Source: Chryseobacterium camelliae
GTDB lineage: Bacteria > Bacteroidota > Bacteroidia > Flavobacteriales > Weeksellaceae
Assembly: GCF_002770595.1 (NCBI RefSeq)
Contig: NZ_CP022986.1
Location: 4,216,001-4,280,000 of the forward strand
DNA length: 64,000 nucleotides
Direction of reading: 5' to 3'
Position numbers and translations under genes: made by a program. Below are positions 2,033-14,313 of the stretch, in pieces. The notes beneath the pieces were generated by a model. The model did not search any database and was not told the origin of the DNA. It worked only from the letters and a program-made list of their open reading frames with translations. Each line of letters begins with the position of its first letter. The first letter of the stretch is position 1.

Positions 2033-4756
2033 GTGAAAAAATTTACAACAGTATTAAAAATTGCGCCGGCATTTCTACTCGCCGGCACAATGGTCCATGC
2101 GCAAACAAAGGACTCAGCAACAAAAGAGAAAAAAATTGAAGAGGTGGTGCTAATTGGGTACGGGCGGCAGAAGAAGACGGATTTAACGGGATCCGTAACG
2201 GCAATTTCCGCAAAAGATTTTAATGAAGGAAGTATAAACTCTCCTGAGCAATTAATTCAAGGTAAGACTTCAGGAATTCAGATAACCACCAATGGAGGGG
2301 CTCCAGGTTCAGGATCTACTATCCGAATCAGAGGAGGTGCTTCTTTAAATGCGTCCAATGATCCTTTGATTGTTATTGATGGTGTTCCGGTAGATAATAA
2401 CGGAATCAGTGGAGCTGCGAATCCTCTTGCTTTAATTAACCCCAATGATATTGAAAGCTTCAGTATTCTTAAAGATGCTTCTGCAGCCGCTATTTATGGA
2501 AGCAGAGCTTCAAATGGAGTTATTATTATAACAACGAAAAGAGGAAGCTCCGGGAAATTACGGGCAAATTATAGTACCATTACTTCGGTATATACCAAAA
2601 TGGGAAATATAGATATGCTGTCTGCGGATGCTTTTCGTCAGGTAGTAAGAGACAAGGCAACAGCTCAATATCAAGGTTTGTTGGGAAGTTCAAATACAAA
2701 TTGGCAGGATCAGATTTATCAAACTGCATTAGGTGTTGATAATACGGTTTCTTTATCAGGAGGAATTAAAGCATTGCCATATAGATTGTCACTAGGCTAT
2801 TTCAACCAGGAAGGTATTATAAGGACAAACACTATTGAAAGATCTACGGCATCTTTAAACTTAAATCCAAAGTTTTTTGATAAACATCTTGAAATTAACT
2901 TTAATGTTAAAGGTACCTATGTAGAAAACAGATTTAAGGATGATGGTGCCATTGGTTCTGCTGTTGTATTCGATCCTACTCAATCCGTTTATGATCCCTC
3001 ATTTTCAAACTATGGCGGTTATTGGGAGTGGCTTGATCCTTCAACAGGAAAGCCTAACACCAATGCCACAAAGAATCCTTTATCAATGCTTAATCAGAGA
3101 TGGGATCTGTCTTACGTTAAAAGAGTATTAGGGAATATTCAGTTTGATTATAAATTTCATTTTCTGCCTGAATTGAGGGCTAACCTTAATGTAGGATATG
3201 ATTATAGTGATGCAAACGGAAATACAACGGTATTGCCAACAGCTGCAATTGCTTACTATAATCAGGGGAGCTACAGGAGATATTCTCAGGAAAAGAAAAA
3301 TAAATTACTTGATTTCTACTTTAATTATCTAAAAACTTTTGAGTCTATAAGGTCAACCGTTGATCTTACTGTTGGGTATTCTTATCAGGACTGGCAGAGA
3401 TCAGAGCCTTTTGCACCGACAGTATATGGTACTGGAGTATCAAATCCGGCAAGTGGAAACGATTTCTTCACTCAGAACACTATAATTTCTTATTTCGGGA
3501 GATTAAATTATACTTTCAATAATAAGTATCTTTTGACAGCTTCATTAAGAAGAGATGGATCTTCCCGTTTCAGCGAAGAAAACAGAATAGGTTATTTTCC
3601 TTCAGTGGCACTTGCCTGGAGAATTGATCAGGAAAATTTCCTGAAAGATTCCAAGACAATTTCTACTTTGAAGTTGAGAGCAGGATGGGGAGAGACAGGT
3701 CAACAGGAACTTAATTTAGGAGATTATCCGTATCTGGCTAGATATATACTATCTGATAGTGGAGCACAATACCAATTGGGAAATCAGTTCTACAATACTT
3801 ACAGAGCGCAGGGATATGACAAAAACCTTAAATGGGAAACTACTGTGACAAAAAATTTAGGTCTTGATTTTGGATTTCTGAATGACCGGATCAACGGTAC
3901 TATTGACGTTTATGAAAAAGAATCAAAGGATCTGATCAGTTTTATTCCCGTGCCTGCGTTATCTAACCTTACTAACTATTTGCTAACTAACGTTGGAGAC
4001 ATGCGGAACCGTGGTATCGAGGCTAATATCAATGTTAAGGCAGTTGATACAGAAAATTTTAAATGGGAGTTTAACGTAAATGCTACTCATTTCAGGTCGG
4101 AAATTACTAATCTGAACTCAAGCCAGACATTAGTTAATACCATAGGAGGAGCTACCGGTACTACAATACAGGTAAATACAGAAGGATATCAACCAAATTC
4201 ATTCTATGTTTACCAACAGGTATATGATAATAATGGTAAACCCATTGAAGGCGTATATGTTGACAGAAACGGTGACGGTATTATTAATACGGATGATCTA
4301 TACAGATATAAATCTCCTGCTCCTGATGTTTTATTAGGTTTCTCGTCTAAATTTAATTTTAAAAACTGGGATTTAGGATTTACTATGAGGGCAAGCATTG
4401 GAAATTATGTATATAATAATGTTGCATCTCAGTATGGTACAGAGCAGGCTATTACTTTGAATAACTATCTTCAGAATATTCACAGCAGTTACCTTGAAAC
4501 CGGTTTTAAGCGTACGCAGCTTTTATCAGACTATTATGTTGAGAATGCTTCTTTCGTAAGAATGGACAATATCAATTTAGGATATAATTTCCCAAGATTT
4601 ATAAAAGATTCAAAACTAAGAATTTTCGGTTCTGTTCAGAATGCATTTATCATTACAAAGTATAGTGGTTTAGATCCTGAAGTTTTCAACGGAATAGATA
4701 ATAATCTATATCAGAGACCTAGAGTGTATTCATTAGGATTTAACTTTCAATTTTAA
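2033..4756 (+). CDS. susC: SusC-like TonB-dependent outer-membrane receptor
   Basis: Outer-membrane channel that imports glycans with a SusD lid, powered by TonB. A signal peptide (about residues 1-24, ending VHAQ) is followed by KIEEVVLIGYGRQKKTDLTGSV, split here as the TonB box KIEEVVLIGYG and plug start. The plug continues with LIQGKTSGIQI, RIRGGASLN and DPLIVIDGVP, and the rest is a beta-barrel ending in FNFQF, a typical outer-membrane terminal aromatic. At 907 residues it is shorter than most SusC proteins because the N-terminal carboxypeptidase-regulatory-like domain is absent. The start is GTG at 2033, chosen because it gives a complete signal peptide. SusD follows after 12 bases. Starch as substrate is inferred from the GH97 and GH13 genes nearby. 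Confidence 0.93.
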   Translation: MKKFTTVLKIAPAFLLAGTMVHAQTKDSATKEKKIEEVVLIGYGRQKKTDLTGSVTAISAKDFNEGSINSPEQLIQGKTSGIQITTNGGAPGSGSTIRIRGGASLNASNDPLIVIDGVPVDNNGISGAANPLALINPNDIESFSILKDASAAAIYGSRASNGVIIITTKRGSSGKLRANYSTITSVYTKMGNIDMLSADAFRQVVRDKATAQYQGLLGSSNTNWQDQIYQTALGVDNTVSLSGGIKALPYRLSLGYFNQEGIIRTNTIERSTASLNLNPKFFDKHLEINFNVKGTYVENRFKDDGAIGSAVVFDPTQSVYDPSFSNYGGYWEWLDPSTGKPNTNATKNPLSMLNQRWDLSYVKRVLGNIQFDYKFHFLPELRANLNVGYDYSDANGNTTVLPTAAIAYYNQGSYRRYSQEKKNKLLDFYFNYLKTFESIRSTVDLTVGYSYQDWQRSEPFAPTVYGTGVSNPASGNDFFTQNTIISYFGRLNYTFNNKYLLTASLRRDGSSRFSEENRIGYFPSVALAWRIDQENFLKDSKTISTLKLRAGWGETGQQELNLGDYPYLARYILSDSGAQYQLGNQFYNTYRAQGYDKNLKWETTVTKNLGLDFGFLNDRINGTIDVYEKESKDLISFIPVPALSNLTNYLLTNVGDMRNRGIEANINVKAVDTENFKWEFNVNATHFRSEITNLNSSQTLVNTIGGATGTTIQVNTEGYQPNSFYVYQQVYDNNGKPIEGVYVDRNGDGIINTDDLYRYKSPAPDVLLGFSSKFNFKNWDLGFTMRASIGNYVYNNVASQYGTEQAITLNNYLQNIHSSYLETGFKRTQLLSDYYVENASFVRMDNINLGYNFPRFIKDSKLRIFGSVQNAFIITKYSGLDPEVFNGIDNNLYQRPRVYSLGFNFQF

Positions 4757-9757: not shown

Positions 9758-9765
9758 TATATTTG
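9758..9765 (+). promoter_or_regulatory. Candidate -7 promoter element of the RiPP-like operon
   Basis: TATATTTG is an exact match to TAnnTTTG and lies 39 bases before the precursor ATG. The region around it is strongly AT-rich. A T-rich stretch at 9733-9739 takes the place of a clear -33 TTG, so strength is uncertain. Confidence 0.55.
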
Positions 9766-9804
9766 GTGAGATAATTAAATTAATAACTCATTAAATTCAT
9801 TTTT

Positions 9805-10053
9805 ATGAAAAAGAAATTCAAAATTACAAGCAATCTTGAGCAAAAAGAAATTCTTAAAAAATCAATCCAGAATTCTGAGAATCAAAATGTAGATCTTTAC
9901 AAATCTATCTTTGGAGGATTGAATTCAGGTATTGCTCCGGGAAACGGAGGTGGTGGTAGTATTATTTTGCCTCCAGGAGGTAGCTGTGATGTGGTAGCAA
10001 TTTCTGGTGCATCTGCTGCTTACGATAGAGTGGATCAATTTTTAAGAGCTTAG
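9805..10053 (+). CDS. Probable RiPP precursor peptide, 82 aa
   Basis: I do not recognise this peptide, but its form and position fit a ribosomally made, modified peptide precursor. The charged leader (residues 1-36, many Lys, Glu and Asn) ends at Gly37-Gly38. A Gly/Pro-rich segment follows (GNGGGGSIILPPGG), then one Cys at 61, a small-residue stretch, and a C-terminal AAYDRVDQFLRA. The two aromatics near the end, Tyr73 and Phe79, are plausible targets for a cyclophane-forming radical SAM enzyme such as the one encoded next. There is no signal peptide. A perfect 12-bp hairpin lies between it and the next gene. Cleavage at Gly-Gly and the crosslink sites are inference. Confidence 0.72.
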   Translation: MKKKFKITSNLEQKEILKKSIQNSENQNVDLYKSIFGGLNSGIAPGNGGGGSIILPPGGSCDVVAISGASAAYDRVDQFLRA

Positions 10054-10076
10054 AACTTGCTGGTTTTTAAAACATT

Positions 10077-10106
10077 AGTTCTTCATCAGTCAAATGATGA
10101 AGAACT
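10077..10106 (+). terminator. Intra-operon hairpin after the precursor, likely partial terminator
   Basis: AGTTCTTCATCA and TGATGAAGAACT form a perfect 12-bp stem around a six-base loop, followed by TTATTTATTT. The downstream ATG begins only 18 bases later. The interrupted T-run suggests partial termination or mRNA stabilisation, which would make the precursor more abundant than the enzymes. Confidence 0.7.
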
Positions 10107-10124
10107 TTATTTATTTCATACAAC

Positions 10125-11366
10125 ATGGTTACTTCTTTTGTTCTGAAGGTTGCAAGCAGATGCAATCTCAATTGCTCATATTGTTACATGTATAATTTAG
10201 GGGATAAAACTTATCTGAAACAACCTAAATTTATGTCAATAAGCACTATACATACTTTCGCTGAAAAATTGGCCCATTATAGTAAAGAAAATGGTTTGAG
10301 ATCTTTTCAGATTGTCTTCCATGGAGGTGAGCCTTTATTACTTCCAAAAGAATTTTACAAGGAAAGTGTTAGGATATTTACTGAAACGCTAAGCGATGCT
10401 TATTTTGATTTTGTTATCCAGACTAATGGTGTTGGATTGGATGGGGACTGGTATGCACTATTTAATGAACTGAACATTCGTGTTGGCATCAGTATGGACG
10501 GACCTAAGGAATATCACGATAGGTACCGTGTATTTCATAATGGAAAAGGATCTTATGACGAGGTAAGGCACGCAATACAGATTGGATTGGAAAATGGGAT
10601 GCATGGGGTACTGTCTGTAGCTAATCTTAATATCTCCCCTAATGTATTATATGAGGAATTCAAAAGCCTGAATGTTCCGAGTTTTAATCTTCTTCTTCCG
10701 GATGGTCATTTCGATAAGTTACCGGATGACCTCATAAAAGATAGAGTCAATACCTATGATTATACGCCATATGCAGATTGGCTGATTGAATTGTTCACGA
10801 TCTGGAAAAGCGATCCTGATAGGCCGAATATGAGATTTTTCAAAACTCTTATTCAGCTGATTGCAGGAGAGGATGCTGGTGACCAGATGGTTGGGTTGAA
10901 AAAAAACGGCGTCGCTGTAGTGGAAACCAATGGAAACCTGGAAGTGGCAGATTCTATTAGAGCTTGTTATGAAGGCATTACCAGAAACAGCATCAATATC
11001 CATACTCACGAGATCAGCTCTATTTTAGAAGATCCGCTTTTTGATATCTATATCAATTCTCATCAGATGGTCAGTGAAAAGTGCATTAACTGTCCTATTT
11101 ATGAAATATGCGGAGGTGGTTTTCTGTTGAACAGATATTCTAATGAAAATGGGTTTGATAATCCTACCATTTATTGTCACGATATGATAAAATTGGTAAC
11201 TTACATCCAAAATGATCTTATTGACAGCTTGCCGGATGAGGTTTGTAAGGAAATGGAACTCAACAGAGTTTCCTATGATGAGATTTTGGAAGAGCTTGAG
11301 AATAAGGGTCCTGTTTCCATTCAGAAAAATATTAAAGATAAATTAGTAGCCTACAGTCTGACATGA
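10125..11366 (+). CDS. Radical SAM/SPASM peptide-modifying enzyme, FxsB-like
   Basis: The protein opens with FVLKVASRCNLNCSYCYMY, which holds the CxxxCxxC cluster motif (Cys13, 17, 20) that binds the SAM-cleaving 4Fe-4S cluster. The C-terminal SPASM region has Cys281, 320, 323, 329 and 351, including CINCPIYEICGGG and GFDNPTIYC. Both ends closely resemble the FxsB family, and relatives in this superfamily make three-residue cyclophanes (triceptides). At 413 residues it is shorter than FxsB forms with the inactivated metallohydrolase extension. Its stop overlaps the next start (ATGA), so the two are translationally coupled. The most likely substrate is the 82-aa peptide directly upstream. Family assignment is strong; the bond formed is inferred. 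Confidence 0.9.
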   Translation: MVTSFVLKVASRCNLNCSYCYMYNLGDKTYLKQPKFMSISTIHTFAEKLAHYSKENGLRSFQIVFHGGEPLLLPKEFYKESVRIFTETLSDAYFDFVIQTNGVGLDGDWYALFNELNIRVGISMDGPKEYHDRYRVFHNGKGSYDEVRHAIQIGLENGMHGVLSVANLNISPNVLYEEFKSLNVPSFNLLLPDGHFDKLPDDLIKDRVNTYDYTPYADWLIELFTIWKSDPDRPNMRFFKTLIQLIAGEDAGDQMVGLKKNGVAVVETNGNLEVADSIRACYEGITRNSINIHTHEISSILEDPLFDIYINSHQMVSEKCINCPIYEICGGGFLLNRYSNENGFDNPTIYCHDMIKLVTYIQNDLIDSLPDEVCKEMELNRVSYDEILEELENKGPVSIQKNIKDKLVAYSLT

Positions 11367-12193
11367 GTTTAAAAAAAGGTATCAAAGTCGATGATCGTCA
11401 TCTTAACAGTATGAGAGATCAGATCAGCATTAATACAGGAGTTGTTGCTGTTAAAAGCATGCATCCTGAAATAGACTATTACGATAATGCCTATTTACCT
11501 GATGCAAACTGGCGGTCCCTAACAGATGTTGAATATAAAACTATTTCAACTGCAGATGCTGACAGAAAAATATTCAATACTCTTGGAGTAGGCACAATTC
11601 CTGCTCATCTGAAAACGTTATTTCAAAAACTAAGTTTAGAAACCTGTACATCGCTCTTTGATGTTCCGGGGAAGTTTCAGGAAAATGAAATGCTCACAAA
11701 AGAGATTAACAAAGCAATCAATACGTTTCTGGATGAAAAATCTCTAAGTCGTAATTATAAATTTCACAGAATTGCACGTTCTCTTCCCGGTATGCAGAGT
11801 ACGACGTTTCATCATATCGGGCAGAATGTTTTTAAATATACGGGCCTGCATATTGATAAAAGTATTCATTTTACTCCTCATACTGCATATAAATCGGGAA
11901 ACAGGATTTCTATCAACATCAGTGAGGAATCACGTTACCTCTATTTTATCAATTTAACATTAAGGCAGATTTACGCTGAAATAAAGAAAAAATATCCTGA
12001 AAAGATCACATCTGAAAATATTGTTGAACAATTTTTCAAACTTTATCCCAGTTATCCTGTTCTAAAGCTTGAAATCAAACCTTATCAATATTATATAGCA
12101 CCTACAGATAATTTTATTCATGACGGCACAACTCTAGGAAATAAAGGGTTCGATATTACGATGGTATATACTGGTGTATTTGATAAATATTAA
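11363..12193 (+). CDS. Uncharacterised HxD...H protein, possible oxygenase (copy 1)
   Basis: I do not recognise the family with confidence. The protein is 276 residues, without signal peptide or membrane segment, and is paralogous to the next gene. Shared landmarks are YLPDANWRSLTDVEY near residue 45, an HxD pair (His163, Asp165 in GLHIDKS), SGNRISINISEESRYL, and YYIAPTDNFIHDGTT with His253. An HxD plus distal His after a strand-rich stretch recalls Fe(II)/2-oxoglutarate dioxygenases, although the usual Arg after the distal His is not evident. It is coupled to the radical SAM gene by a 4-base overlap, so a second modification of the same peptide is a fair guess. A non-enzymatic binding role is the alternative. 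Confidence 0.6.
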   Translation: MSLKKGIKVDDRHLNSMRDQISINTGVVAVKSMHPEIDYYDNAYLPDANWRSLTDVEYKTISTADADRKIFNTLGVGTIPAHLKTLFQKLSLETCTSLFDVPGKFQENEMLTKEINKAINTFLDEKSLSRNYKFHRIARSLPGMQSTTFHHIGQNVFKYTGLHIDKSIHFTPHTAYKSGNRISINISEESRYLYFINLTLRQIYAEIKKKYPEKITSENIVEQFFKLYPSYPVLKLEIKPYQYYIAPTDNFIHDGTTLGNKGFDITMVYTGVFDKY

Positions 12194-12196
12194 TCT

Positions 12197-13072
12197 ATGA
12201 AAAAACTAAAACCTGGAATTAAAATATACTCAGATAAGCAAAATGGGAATCTCCAGATCAATTCAGGAGTCATCCATCATTCAAAGCAAGCTCCGAATGA
12301 ACTTGTTTTTAAAAGTCAGAAGTTTATACAGCAGTATGAACCGGAAGCATATTTGCCTAAAAGAGATTGGCGGCCATTAAAGGCAGAAGAATACAATATA
12401 TTAAAAGGAGATCATTTAAATAAAAAAGACTTTAATTCGGTTTTTATCGGTGAACTTCCCGATCCTCTGAAGATTCTTTTTGATAAATTAAATTTAGAGA
12501 CTGCTCAATCTCAGGATGAAGTTTTTGACAAATTTAAAAACAATCATGAATTGGTCAATGACATTAATCTTAAGTTAAATGAATTTATCGAGCCTGTTTC
12601 ATTAGGGCCCTATAAGTTCATGAGTCTCGCTACAAATTATGCGAACAGTGAGATTGTATCTTTAGATAAAAGAAAATTACCTGCAGGGTATACAATCAAT
12701 GATTTACGTTTTATAGGAGTCCATAAGGACAGTTCCCAAAACATGACATTGCATACAGCGCATCGGTTTGGTAATAGAATAACATTTAACCTTGGAAAGG
12801 AATCCAGATATTTGTTGCTGATCAATTTAACCATGCTGCAGGTTTATCATATGATTAAAAAAGAAATAGATATAAAAGAACATAATATCAATAACAAAAA
12901 TATAACGTCTTATTTCATGCAGCTGTTTCCTGATTATCCTATGTTGAAAATAGAACAGAAGCCTTATCATTATTATATTGCTCCTACAGACAACTGTTTT
13001 CACGACGGATCTACCTTTGGGAGTATGTCTCTTGATATTGTAATGACGTATCTCGGTAGATTTTTAATATAA
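12197..13072 (+). CDS. Uncharacterised HxD...H protein, possible oxygenase (copy 2)
   Basis: Paralogue of the preceding gene and only three bases downstream of it. It keeps EAYLPKRDWRPLKAEEY, the HxD pair (His176, Asp178 in GVHKDSS), FGNRITFNLGKESRYLLLINL and YYIAPTDNCFHDGST with His269. The His-to-His spacing is 93 residues against 90 in copy 1. Conservation of just these short blocks, with otherwise divergent sequence, suggests they form the active or ligand site. The two copies may act on different positions of the peptide or form a heterodimer. It is cytoplasmic by sequence (291 residues, no signal). Identification as an Fe(II)/2OG-type enzyme is tentative. Confidence 0.6.
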   Translation: MKKLKPGIKIYSDKQNGNLQINSGVIHHSKQAPNELVFKSQKFIQQYEPEAYLPKRDWRPLKAEEYNILKGDHLNKKDFNSVFIGELPDPLKILFDKLNLETAQSQDEVFDKFKNNHELVNDINLKLNEFIEPVSLGPYKFMSLATNYANSEIVSLDKRKLPAGYTINDLRFIGVHKDSSQNMTLHTAHRFGNRITFNLGKESRYLLLINLTMLQVYHMIKKEIDIKEHNINNKNITSYFMQLFPDYPMLKIEQKPYHYYIAPTDNCFHDGSTFGSMSLDIVMTYLGRFLI

Positions 13073-13087
13073 AAATAACCTGTTTAT

Positions 13088-14242
13088 ATGAAATATGCTT
13101 TAACTTTTTTACTATTATGTATTTCGCTTATGCATATGGCTCAGAAAAAACTTCCCGTAATCAGGGCTAATTCATCTAAAGCGGTCATCCTTGAAGAAGA
13201 TAACGGACTGAAGACGGACTGGAATATTGATCCGTCAGTAAAACCTGATATCTACATCGTATCCAAAATAAGCAGAGGTTCTAAGACGGTTAAGATAAAA
13301 ACAGATATTGATTCGATTAGGATAAAAATAAAGCAGGGTGAAAAAAAAGACTTTGTAATTCTTCTGAAAGGCAAAGATTCCTGCCTGACAAGAATTGAGA
13401 GCCAGGTTCCTAAGAATTTCAGTACCGTGCAGCCAGCTTTTCATGACAGCATCCGTTTAGGAATTAACGGGCAGAATACGATGTTTGTCAAGGCGGCACT
13501 TAATAAAACAGATTCGTTAGTGCTGAATTTCGATACGGGAACCAGCAACCTTTCCCTTACTGCAGAAGCTTTGAAAGATAAGATCAAACAATCCCTGAAG
13601 GCAGGAGTCAACGTACTTTCCATTGGGAACAAGAAATACGACGGCTTTAAAATTTATAAGGTGGAGCTGTCGGGACACGGAACAGACGGCAGGTTCGGCT
13701 GGGACCTTTTCGACGGAATGGTGGTTGAGCTGAATTATGACCATGGAATCATGGTCGTTCATTCCCAACTTCCGGAATATGTAAAAAAAGACAAGGCTTA
13801 CGAAAAGCTGGAGGTGAAATATCTTGACAAGCTTTTTTTTGTGGAGACTACAATCAACCAGGGTTCAAGATCATATAAGGATTGGTTTCTTTTTGACACC
13901 GGATACCAGCGTACGGCGATGCTTGACGGTCCTTTGTTGAGAGAACATCATTTCCCGACCACACAAATGAAAGAGATTAAAAAAGTCATCATGAGGGGAG
14001 GCCAGGGAAATGAAATTCCGGTCATTACGGCCAATCTCGAATCATTAAGCCTGGGTAAATATAAACTTAAGAATATTCCGGCTCAGCTTCTCTCTGAAAG
14101 CAGGCTGGTCATCAACAAAAGGATGAATATCCTGGGCAATGAAATCCTGAAACGTTTCAACGTTTTCCTGGATTTTCAGAATAACGCAGTTTACCTGAAA
14201 CCCAACAGATTATTCAATGACAGCTACATTGAAAAAGAATAA
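13088..14242 (+). CDS. Secreted pepsin/retropepsin-like aspartic protease
   Basis: A signal peptide (residues about 1-18, ending HMAQ) directs it to the periplasm or beyond. Two catalytic-type motifs are present: NFDTGTSNLSL (Asp149-Thr-Gly) and LFDTGYQRTAM (Asp270-Thr-Gly), each followed by the hydrophobic stretch usual for one lobe of an aspartic protease. Two DTG motifs in one chain imply an internal pseudo-dimer. Residues about 85-130 precede the first lobe and may be a propeptide or beta domain. It begins 15 bases after copy 2 of the HxD protein and is followed by a terminator, so it is the last gene of the operon. Leader removal from an exported modified peptide is an attractive but unproven role. 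Confidence 0.72.
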   Translation: MKYALTFLLLCISLMHMAQKKLPVIRANSSKAVILEEDNGLKTDWNIDPSVKPDIYIVSKISRGSKTVKIKTDIDSIRIKIKQGEKKDFVILLKGKDSCLTRIESQVPKNFSTVQPAFHDSIRLGINGQNTMFVKAALNKTDSLVLNFDTGTSNLSLTAEALKDKIKQSLKAGVNVLSIGNKKYDGFKIYKVELSGHGTDGRFGWDLFDGMVVELNYDHGIMVVHSQLPEYVKKDKAYEKLEVKYLDKLFFVETTINQGSRSYKDWFLFDTGYQRTAMLDGPLLREHHFPTTQMKEIKKVIMRGGQGNEIPVITANLESLSLGKYKLKNIPAQLLSESRLVINKRMNILGNEILKRFNVFLDFQNNAVYLKPNRLFNDSYIEKE

Positions 14243-14278
14243 AAATAGGCTGTAGAATAATATTTTCATAACTTTATG

Positions 14279-14313
14279 ATCCTTGAAGGTTGTTTTGCCT
14301 TTAAGGATTTTTT
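14279..14313 (+). terminator. Terminator closing the RiPP-like operon
   Basis: The arms ATCCTTGAAGG and CCTTTAAGGAT pair over 11 bp with one G-T pair around an eight-base loop, and a T-run follows. It marks the 3' boundary of the operon that starts at the precursor peptide. Confidence 0.85.

Follow-up and report, generated by a model that had tools for sequence, protein, structure and literature searches.

Among described systems, the closest to the locus considered here are the YhhB-type triceptides, which were reportedly described by Sugiyama et al. in 2022, and the FxsB maturases, whose family definition, to our knowledge, includes no oxygenase. According to the accessible portion of PMC11002830, YhhB joins C3 of a tyrosine to C-beta of an arginine; what is available of PMC12257519 mentions triceptides in general only. 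Here we describe a locus of the Chryseobacterium camelliae genome (4.38 Mb) that lies at positions 9758 to 14313 of a stretch of 64,000 nucleotides (NCBI RefSeq assembly GCF_002770595.1, contig NZ_CP022986.1, positions 4,216,001 to 4,280,000), hereafter called the window. A short precursor gene is followed by the gene of a radical S-adenosylmethionine (SAM)/SPASM enzyme, by two paralogous genes for predicted Fe(II)/2-oxoglutarate oxygenases, here called oxA and oxB, and by the gene of an aspartic protease. Precursor, radical SAM enzyme and the two oxygenases probably make a cyclophane-containing, triceptide-like, ribosomally synthesized and post-translationally modified peptide (RiPP). The initial annotation of this DNA had proposed a RiPP operon with an FxsB-like radical SAM/SPASM enzyme and two HxD...H proteins. 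Comparison with relatives upholds an operon of this kind, with the enzyme read as YhhB/FxsB-like and the two proteins as tailoring oxygenases: the genes form a conserved unit, and the core motifs of the peptide are present in 39 of 39 aligned precursors.

The five open reading frames (ORFs) and the closing terminator were found where that annotation had placed them, with intergenic gaps of, in order, 71, -4, 3 and 15 bases. The features of the locus are as follows.

9758-9765, + strand: -7 promoter-like motif TATATTTG, a match to the Bacteroidota -7 promoter consensus TAnnTTTG
9805-10053, + strand: precursor peptide of 82 residues, with a leader to IFGG (residues 35-38) and a core of 44 residues
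9985-9987, + strand: single cysteine of the core, Cys61, upstream of Y-D-R
10021-10050, + strand: predicted cyclophane motifs Y-D-R and F-L-R in the core end Y73-D-R-V-D-Q-F-L-R-A82, from the alignment of 39 precursors
10077-10106, + strand: terminator-like hairpin between precursor and enzyme genes, a possible attenuator, with 12 perfect pairs followed by a T-rich stretch
10125-11366, + strand: radical SAM/SPASM peptide maturase of 413 residues, YhhB/FxsB-related and a predicted cyclophane former, from profile matches and conserved cysteines
11363-12193, + strand: oxA, MicC-like predicted Fe(II)/2-oxoglutarate oxygenase of 276 residues, with H163, D165 and H253
12197-13072, + strand: oxB, second, paralogous MicC-like predicted oxygenase of 291 residues, with H176, D178 and H269
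13088-14242, + strand: two-DTG aspartic protease of 384 residues, co-directional with and separable from the RiPP genes, from a Pfam match; signal-peptide-like start by eye
14278-14309, + strand: closing terminator-like hairpin with a T run, from a terminator scan

Conservation of the four-gene unit

A search with oxA over 173 Chryseobacterium genomes gave matches in 27, all of which were fetched, yielding 28 loci. Precursor, radical SAM gene, oxA and oxB stand in this order in 24 of the 173 genomes, a recurrence that is more than chance. In the remaining four loci the radical SAM gene is accompanied by just one oxygenase, which is more distant, and nothing recognisably related to the window precursor is present. 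Twenty-two of the 24 copies occupy one chromosomal site, behind a GH97 gene; those of genomes G092 and G158 are found at another. Within the 24 loci, the radical SAM gene is interrupted in L041 only, and the protease gene in L041, L047 and L051, three of its 22 copies. Over the GH97-site loci, and for pairs with a synonymous divergence (dS) of 0.05-1.5, the median pairwise ratio of non-synonymous to synonymous substitution (dN/dS) was 0.16 in the precursor, compared with 0.055-0.072 in the three enzymes and 0.079 in the protease. Outside the RiPP carriers, the closest GH97 gene, 98 percent identical, is that of G012 (L107); this genome has lost the RiPP genes, and its protease is reduced to a short remnant with start and end kept and the middle gone, which indicates that loss at the GH97 site happens.

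In a phylum sample of 395 genomes, two matched, namely the window genome itself (G000) and G309. Scanning a named genome collection with a single pattern around YIAPT, which missed relatives lacking YIAPT, yielded 33 loci, many of which duplicate the Chryseobacterium records. Clusters of similar type are found in Chitinophaga, Niastella, Mucilaginibacter, Kordia, Aquimarina, Tenacibaculum and Flavobacterium. Of the loci outside Chryseobacterium, the 15 nearest (L122-L132 and L134-L137) have three tandem oxygenases (L123, L125, L127, L129 and L130) or four (the other ten). The Chryseobacterium profile recognises the precursor in 14 of these 15, the contig of L122 stopping just before oxygenase 1. 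The initial annotation had named, as evidence that would speak against it, a precursor that is not conserved beside the enzyme in relatives; the 24 genomes of the genus and the 14 loci of other genera show the opposite. Paraflavitalea L139 brings the loci outside the genus to sixteen; it has a single distant oxygenase and a different small ORF.

A viral or plasmid origin was considered and rejected, as a scan of a viral collection found no relative and 22 of the 24 copies share one chromosomal site; a plasmid collection held four distant relatives of 25-29 percent identity.

Some variants of the cluster deserve mention in their own right. Two precursor genes with slightly different cores stand in tandem in Niastella (L123:4160-4622) and lie 2.7 kb apart in Mucilaginibacter flavus (L130:1468-1674 and 4424-4627). 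A separate Chryseobacterium cluster (L058 and L059, also recorded as L140 and L141) combines a radical SAM gene with one MicC-like oxygenase, a C39 transporter, a barrel-like protein, a gene of glycosyltransferase family 9 (Pfam match on L140) and a small Gly-Gly-containing ORF whose core is unrelated to the window precursor. L138 (G156) and L057 (G051) are single-oxygenase clusters, the former with another small ORF 5' of the radical SAM gene and a prolyl-oligopeptidase-like gene 3' of the oxygenase.

The precursor and its predicted modifying enzymes

Profile searches assigned the precursor to no Pfam or NCBIfam family. Its leader ends in IFGG and is thus of the Gly-Gly type; the leader end D-L-Y-x-[AS]-[IV]-F-G-G is found in 39 of 41 precursors, the exceptions being IFGK in L128 and IFAG in L129. 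Each of the 39 aligned cores holds exactly one cysteine, Y-[DNS]-[RK] and FL[RQKL], with an acidic residue between the two motifs. L054 and L055 were excluded from this alignment by the leader pattern, and their core features fit by eye. The aromatic-x-x core motif of triceptides is therefore present throughout (39/39), and, judged from the sequences, the conserved Tyr-x-Arg/Lys and Phe-Leu-x are the i/i+2 pattern of these peptides. The Y-D-R of the window fits the Tyr-Arg bond of YhhB, as given in the accessible portion of PMC11002830. Among the nine four-copy loci whose precursor is readable, eight have F-L-Q as the last motif and one (L136) has F-L-L; loci with fewer oxygenase copies have F-L-R, F-L-K or F-L-L there. 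This is only a hint that the last motif tracks oxygenase copy number, and shared ancestry could explain it.

The radical SAM protein matches Pfam Radical_SAM. The initial annotation had called it an FxsB-type enzyme on the strength of two end motifs, CNLNCSYCYMY and GFDNPTIYC, and both are indeed present; the name itself needs qualification, since YhhB scores better and neither curated cut-off is reached. The best curated model is YhhB NF041707 ('cyclophane-forming') with 343.4 bits (E 1.3e-102, cut-off 445), followed by FxsB TIGR04269 with 317 bits (cut-off 370). The window enzyme and four relatives together span 310-356 bits with YhhB and 280-319 bits with FxsB, all below the cut-offs. Missing both thresholds in the company of relatives that score alike, the enzyme belongs to a sister group of the known cyclophane formers. 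Among solved structures, its best match is the chain named ChlB radical SAM domain (E 2.3e-56). Both CX3CX2C and the SPASM cysteines C320, C323, C329 and C351 are conserved in 46 of 46 proteins, and C281 in 42 of 46, in a set from which duplicates (L120, L121 and L133) and proteins of at most 330 residues were left out. A CX3CX2C motif and auxiliary-cluster cysteines beside a short precursor are what is expected of a triceptide system.

Alternatively, the peptide may be the same RiPP with another bond, in which Cys61 would form a thioether or other sulfur link and Tyr and Phe would be recognition residues only. Exactly one cysteine in each of the 39 cores would be consistent with this, as would the matches, albeit weaker, of thioether-type maturases of the wider family. 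However, the best matches are cyclophane formers, at 343 and 317 bits, far ahead of the 104 bits with the model of the ranthipeptide maturase PapB, and Tyr-x-Arg/Lys and Phe-Leu-x are as invariant as the cysteine. We therefore regard a sulfur link as quite improbable and retain the cyclophane as the preferred bond.

Neither oxA nor oxB matches a Pfam or NCBIfam family above cut-off. Both are related to PDB chain 9vkm, the alpha-ketoglutarate-dependent non-heme iron oxygenase MicC (oxA, E 1.2e-17, residues 5-273; oxB, E 4.6e-18, residues 82-282). The H, D, H triad is invariant in oxA (26/26), in oxB (26/26) and in 50 of 50 relatives, so that the HxD...H metal triad of an Fe(II)/2-oxoglutarate oxygenase is in place. 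Arg181 and Arg191 (oxA numbering) are invariant alongside it and are candidates for binding 2-oxoglutarate. When the AlphaFold2 model of oxA (predicted local distance difference test, pLDDT, 93.4) was used in a second structure search, KdoO came first (Z 9.6, root-mean-square deviation 4.4, 197 residues aligned), followed by PrhA, ALKBH7, WelO5, AsqJ and others, all named Fe/2-oxoglutarate enzymes. The oxA model thus resembles known Fe(II)/2-oxoglutarate oxygenases in fold, by a modest margin. MicC was not among the Foldseek/VIA matches listed for the model, which excludes nothing.

In a tree of 110 oxygenase sequences, oxA clusters with copy 1 from the 15 non-Chryseobacterium loci (support 93/94), and oxB forms a clade of its own (85/76) that is joined to the clade of copies 2, 3 and 4 of other genera (joint support 100/96). 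The copy-2 and copy-4 types make up one clade each (99/96 and 100/95). The copy-3 type falls into two groups instead of one clade, and the middle copy of L130 is a long branch without a resolved place. By tree grouping, the copy-4 type is missing in Niastella, Longitalea and Flavobacterium, and the copy-2 type in Mucilaginibacter L127. A recent duplication giving rise to oxA and oxB was rejected, the clades being older than the genera. Copies that are old and have been kept apart are as expected if each has its own position or reaction, and the tandem oxygenases accordingly look specialised.

One of the two could instead be catalytically idle and serve its partner as a chaperone or recognition subunit. 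In other systems, non-haem oxygenases work in pairs of which one member is structural, which we count in favour of this possibility, as we do the tandem arrangement of oxA and oxB, 3 bases apart. An idle copy would nevertheless be hard to reconcile with a triad and two further arginines that are invariant in both copies, or with the existence of clusters with one, two, three and four copies. We consider it unlikely and prefer two active, specialised enzymes.

In the pathway that we favour, the 38-residue leader would guide the precursor to the radical SAM/SPASM enzyme, which would join C-beta of residue i+2 to the ring of the aromatic residue i. The product would carry a Tyr73-Arg75 cyclophane and probably also one between Phe79 and Arg81. 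As specialised Fe/2-oxoglutarate oxygenases, oxA and oxB would then act on the same core at different positions, each by hydroxylation or some other oxidation. A C39 peptidase transporter whose gene lies elsewhere in the genome would cleave the leader behind Gly-Gly and export the core; the aspartic protease would be at most an optional helper.

Several points weigh against this reading. The radical SAM enzyme stays below both curated cut-offs (343 of 445 and 317 of 370 bits), so that the type of bond is one that we infer. The second motif is F-L-L in 11 of 24 Chryseobacterium precursors, which makes the second crosslink less certain than the first; leucine is not among the partner residues named in the accessible portion of PMC11002830. 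A Foldseek search with the oxA model gave no match with E below 0.001, the best being at 2.0e-03, with Fe/2-oxoglutarate oxygenases first, and the Z of 9.6 in the second search is modestly above the 7-8 that this tool typically returns as its best for unmatched models. A C39 transporter gene lies within about 7-8 kb on either side in none of the 24 Chryseobacterium loci, and C39 proteins are common, 8 of 14 control genomes having them. Neither an immunity gene nor a target was identified for the operon. The chemistry of the pathway thus remains a deduction, while comparison of the sequences leaves the RiPP-operon reading itself well supported.

Export, expression and the neighbouring protease

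Outside the genus, a C39 peptidase/ATP-binding cassette (ABC) transporter gene is found 3' of the oxygenases in seven of the 15 loci (L122-L127 and L130; Pfam match on the L124 protein), and L129 has a C39-transporter-like ORF 5' of a barrel gene. The remaining seven loci, all of Flavobacteriaceae, showed no transporter in the stretch examined. In 13 of the 15 loci a gene for an outer-membrane beta-barrel protein (PF14905 on the L124 protein) stands 5' of the precursor; like the transporter, it was found in none of the 24 Chryseobacterium loci within about 7-8 kb on either side. C39 proteins are encoded elsewhere in all 24 Chryseobacterium genomes, with two in the window genome, outside the operon; in G309, the contig that bears the cluster also encodes two, at distances of about 6 and 20 kb. 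Cleavage of the leader by a C39 peptidase in trans is possible but unproven.

As regards expression, CTATATTTGGTGA also stands 5' of the precursor in L113 and L116, the two other GH97-site loci inspected. A sigma-70 scan gave nothing at the position of the promoter-like motif, and its 10 sites in the region are fewer than in shuffles (mean 18). The initial annotation had described a unit with one terminator. The closing terminator stands, but a second terminator-like hairpin, at 10077-10106, had been overlooked; it lies in the 71-base gap between precursor and radical SAM gene. Most relatives folded have a hairpin at the corresponding place with a wholly changed sequence (compare the GH97-site loci with L054/L055 and with Kordia); the folds predicted for L123 and L125 are weak, and in L045 and L124 the stretch folded was shortened by an alternative start codon. 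A hairpin in this position is typical of operons that produce more precursor than enzyme. Owing to the hairpin in this gap, the enzymes may be made below the level of the precursor; attenuation of enzyme expression is one possible function for it, and in the proposed pathway it would lower enzyme expression relative to that of the precursor.

The relatives outside the GH97 site share a further element upstream of the precursor.

L124:4409-4440, and the same place in L120, L121, L123, L125-L132 and L134-L137: leader element, absent from the window

This element is conserved over 32 bases 5' of the precursor in the 16 aligned loci, with the consensus GAAGGGCAATTGCCATGTCCTTACTGATGGCA, and can form two interleaved helices, that is, an H-type pseudoknot. 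The structure was tested on 14 sequences, L125 being left out because it needs an extra loop base and L137 because it repeats L131. Pairing is possible in 94.6 percent of cells, four pairs show two-sided changes, and none of 500 shuffles reaches the covariation score; versions slid by 1-3 columns pair in 30-54 percent only. Several points count against the pseudoknot. The number of further pair types is reached by 119 of 500 shuffles, and the structure was drawn from the very related sequences on which it was tested. In the first helix, L123 alone supplies both two-sided changes; in the second, they are supplied by L123 together with three Kordia/Aquimarina loci. With up to two mismatches the pattern was found in two of 173 genus genomes (G092 and G158), in both before this precursor, which implies that the window and the other GH97-site genomes lack the element, an L123-like variant aside. 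With up to three mismatches it was found in two of 390 phylum genomes, exactly beside the G309 cluster and, doubtfully, with three mismatches in G511; a reversed control pattern gave one match in the same genomes, in G220. Rfam had no match at the element in L124, L131 and L120, its matches being sub-threshold and elsewhere. Through this pseudoknot-like leader, a candidate regulatory RNA, the relatives would couple their peptide to a signal. Directly before the element, L120, L124, L129, L131 and others have an inverted repeat, noticed by eye (TTCATTTTA...TAAAATGAA in L131, CTCATTT...AAATGAG in L120), which is a candidate for a further stem or an operator site.

The protease matches Pfam Asp_protease_2 with 25.9 bits (cut-off 24.3), which places it in clan AA, and both DTG motifs are invariant in 20 of 20 full-length copies. 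Its model is mediocre (pLDDT 67.4, with residues 130-203, which include the first DTG, and 272-280, behind the second, below 50), and the weak matches to pepsin-like folds are only suggestive. The initial annotation had treated it as an integral part of the pathway, and it could indeed belong to maturation, trimming or cutting the modified peptide once this has been exported. This would account for its place directly 3' of oxB in 22 of the 24 loci, all of them behind GH97, at most 20 bases behind oxB or overlapping it. An orthologue of at least 60 percent identity occurs at the GH97 site in only four of the 149 genomes without the four-gene set, so that the 173 genomes comprise 22 with both, two with the RiPP genes only, four with the protease only and 145 with neither, an association at a single site in which shared ancestry is ignored. 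Aquimarina, moreover, has a relative of 36 percent identity about 1 kb from the precursor, on the opposite strand.

The two can be separated, however. G092 and G158 have the RiPP genes without the protease, while G099, G132, G151 and G171 keep the protease directly behind GH97 without RiPP genes and under purifying selection (dN/dS 0.08-0.18, six pairs), which argues that it has a use of its own. Moreover, two of the three interrupted copies stand beside intact RiPP enzymes. In the window the G+C content of the protease gene (40.5 percent) lies between that of the RiPP genes (32-37 percent) and that of the flanking genes (44-45 percent), although over all loci the contrast is small, with third-position values of 0.325 for the protease, 0.26-0.32 for the RiPP genes and 0.354 for GH97. 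A term search of a 2023 review of RiPP leader proteases (PMC10885120) did not find the word 'aspartic'. An integral role therefore seems rather doubtful in spite of the strong association at the GH97 site, and we prefer to see in the protease a neighbour that may help the pathway and is no defining part of it.

Comparison with known systems

It is tempting to speculate that these loci represent a class of Bacteroidota RiPPs in which a short core, almost unchanged between loci, is stapled by a radical SAM enzyme and then oxidised at up to four positions by old 2-oxoglutarate oxygenases, each specific to its position. One enzyme would serve one position, gain and loss of copies would diversify the product, and the ancestral control by an H-type pseudoknot leader specific to the class would have been lost in the lineage of the window. 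We put this forward tentatively, as a proposal that has the balance of probability against it; that the copy-3 type is not one clade lowers its chances. The natural series of two, three and four old paralogues acting on a near-identical core should allow a position to be assigned to each enzyme by comparison of products. The locus offers a compact case for studying how one small crosslinked peptide is shared by several 2-oxoglutarate oxygenases, and directs attention to triceptide-type clusters of Bacteroidota with maturases below curated cut-offs.

According to the initial annotation, no described system adds HxD...H proteins to a maturase of this kind. This was too strong, given the relation to MicC, whose structure has been solved, and a cluster on a Nostoc plasmid. 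With MicC (PDB 9vkm), oxA and oxB share a sequence relation over the regions given above and the HxD...H motif, but they are only distant relatives; what MicC catalyses, which organism it comes from and in which cluster it lies could not be found in the literature searched, which excluded most subscription papers. On Nostoc plasmid pTCL26-01_E (L154), an annotated GrrM/OscB triceptide maturase is followed by one oxA relative (28.8 percent identity), which matches MicC better than the window proteins do (E 1.3e-28). A radical SAM cyclophane former with one oxA-type oxygenase thus already exists elsewhere. The Nostoc cluster differs from that of the window in its single oxygenase and in the Trp-based motifs of its upstream ORF of 68 residues. 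Relatives on Streptomyces and Methylocystis plasmids have no annotated radical SAM gene adjoining them, in a gene table that is incomplete. No description of Bacteroidota clusters with two to four specialised copies and a conserved core was found in the open-access literature searched.

FxsB maturases (TIGR04269) resemble the window enzyme as its second-best curated match and differ in that the window group reaches only 280-319 bits against their cut-off of 370. The closest likeness is to the YhhB-type triceptides (NF041707), which share the radical SAM/SPASM enzyme, as the best curated match, and whose Tyr-Arg bond, as far as the source describes it, fits the Tyr-x-Arg of the core. From these the loci described here are set apart by scores of 310-356 bits against a cut-off of 445, by two to four tandem oxygenases, by the second motif Phe-Leu-x and by a leader of the Gly-Gly type.

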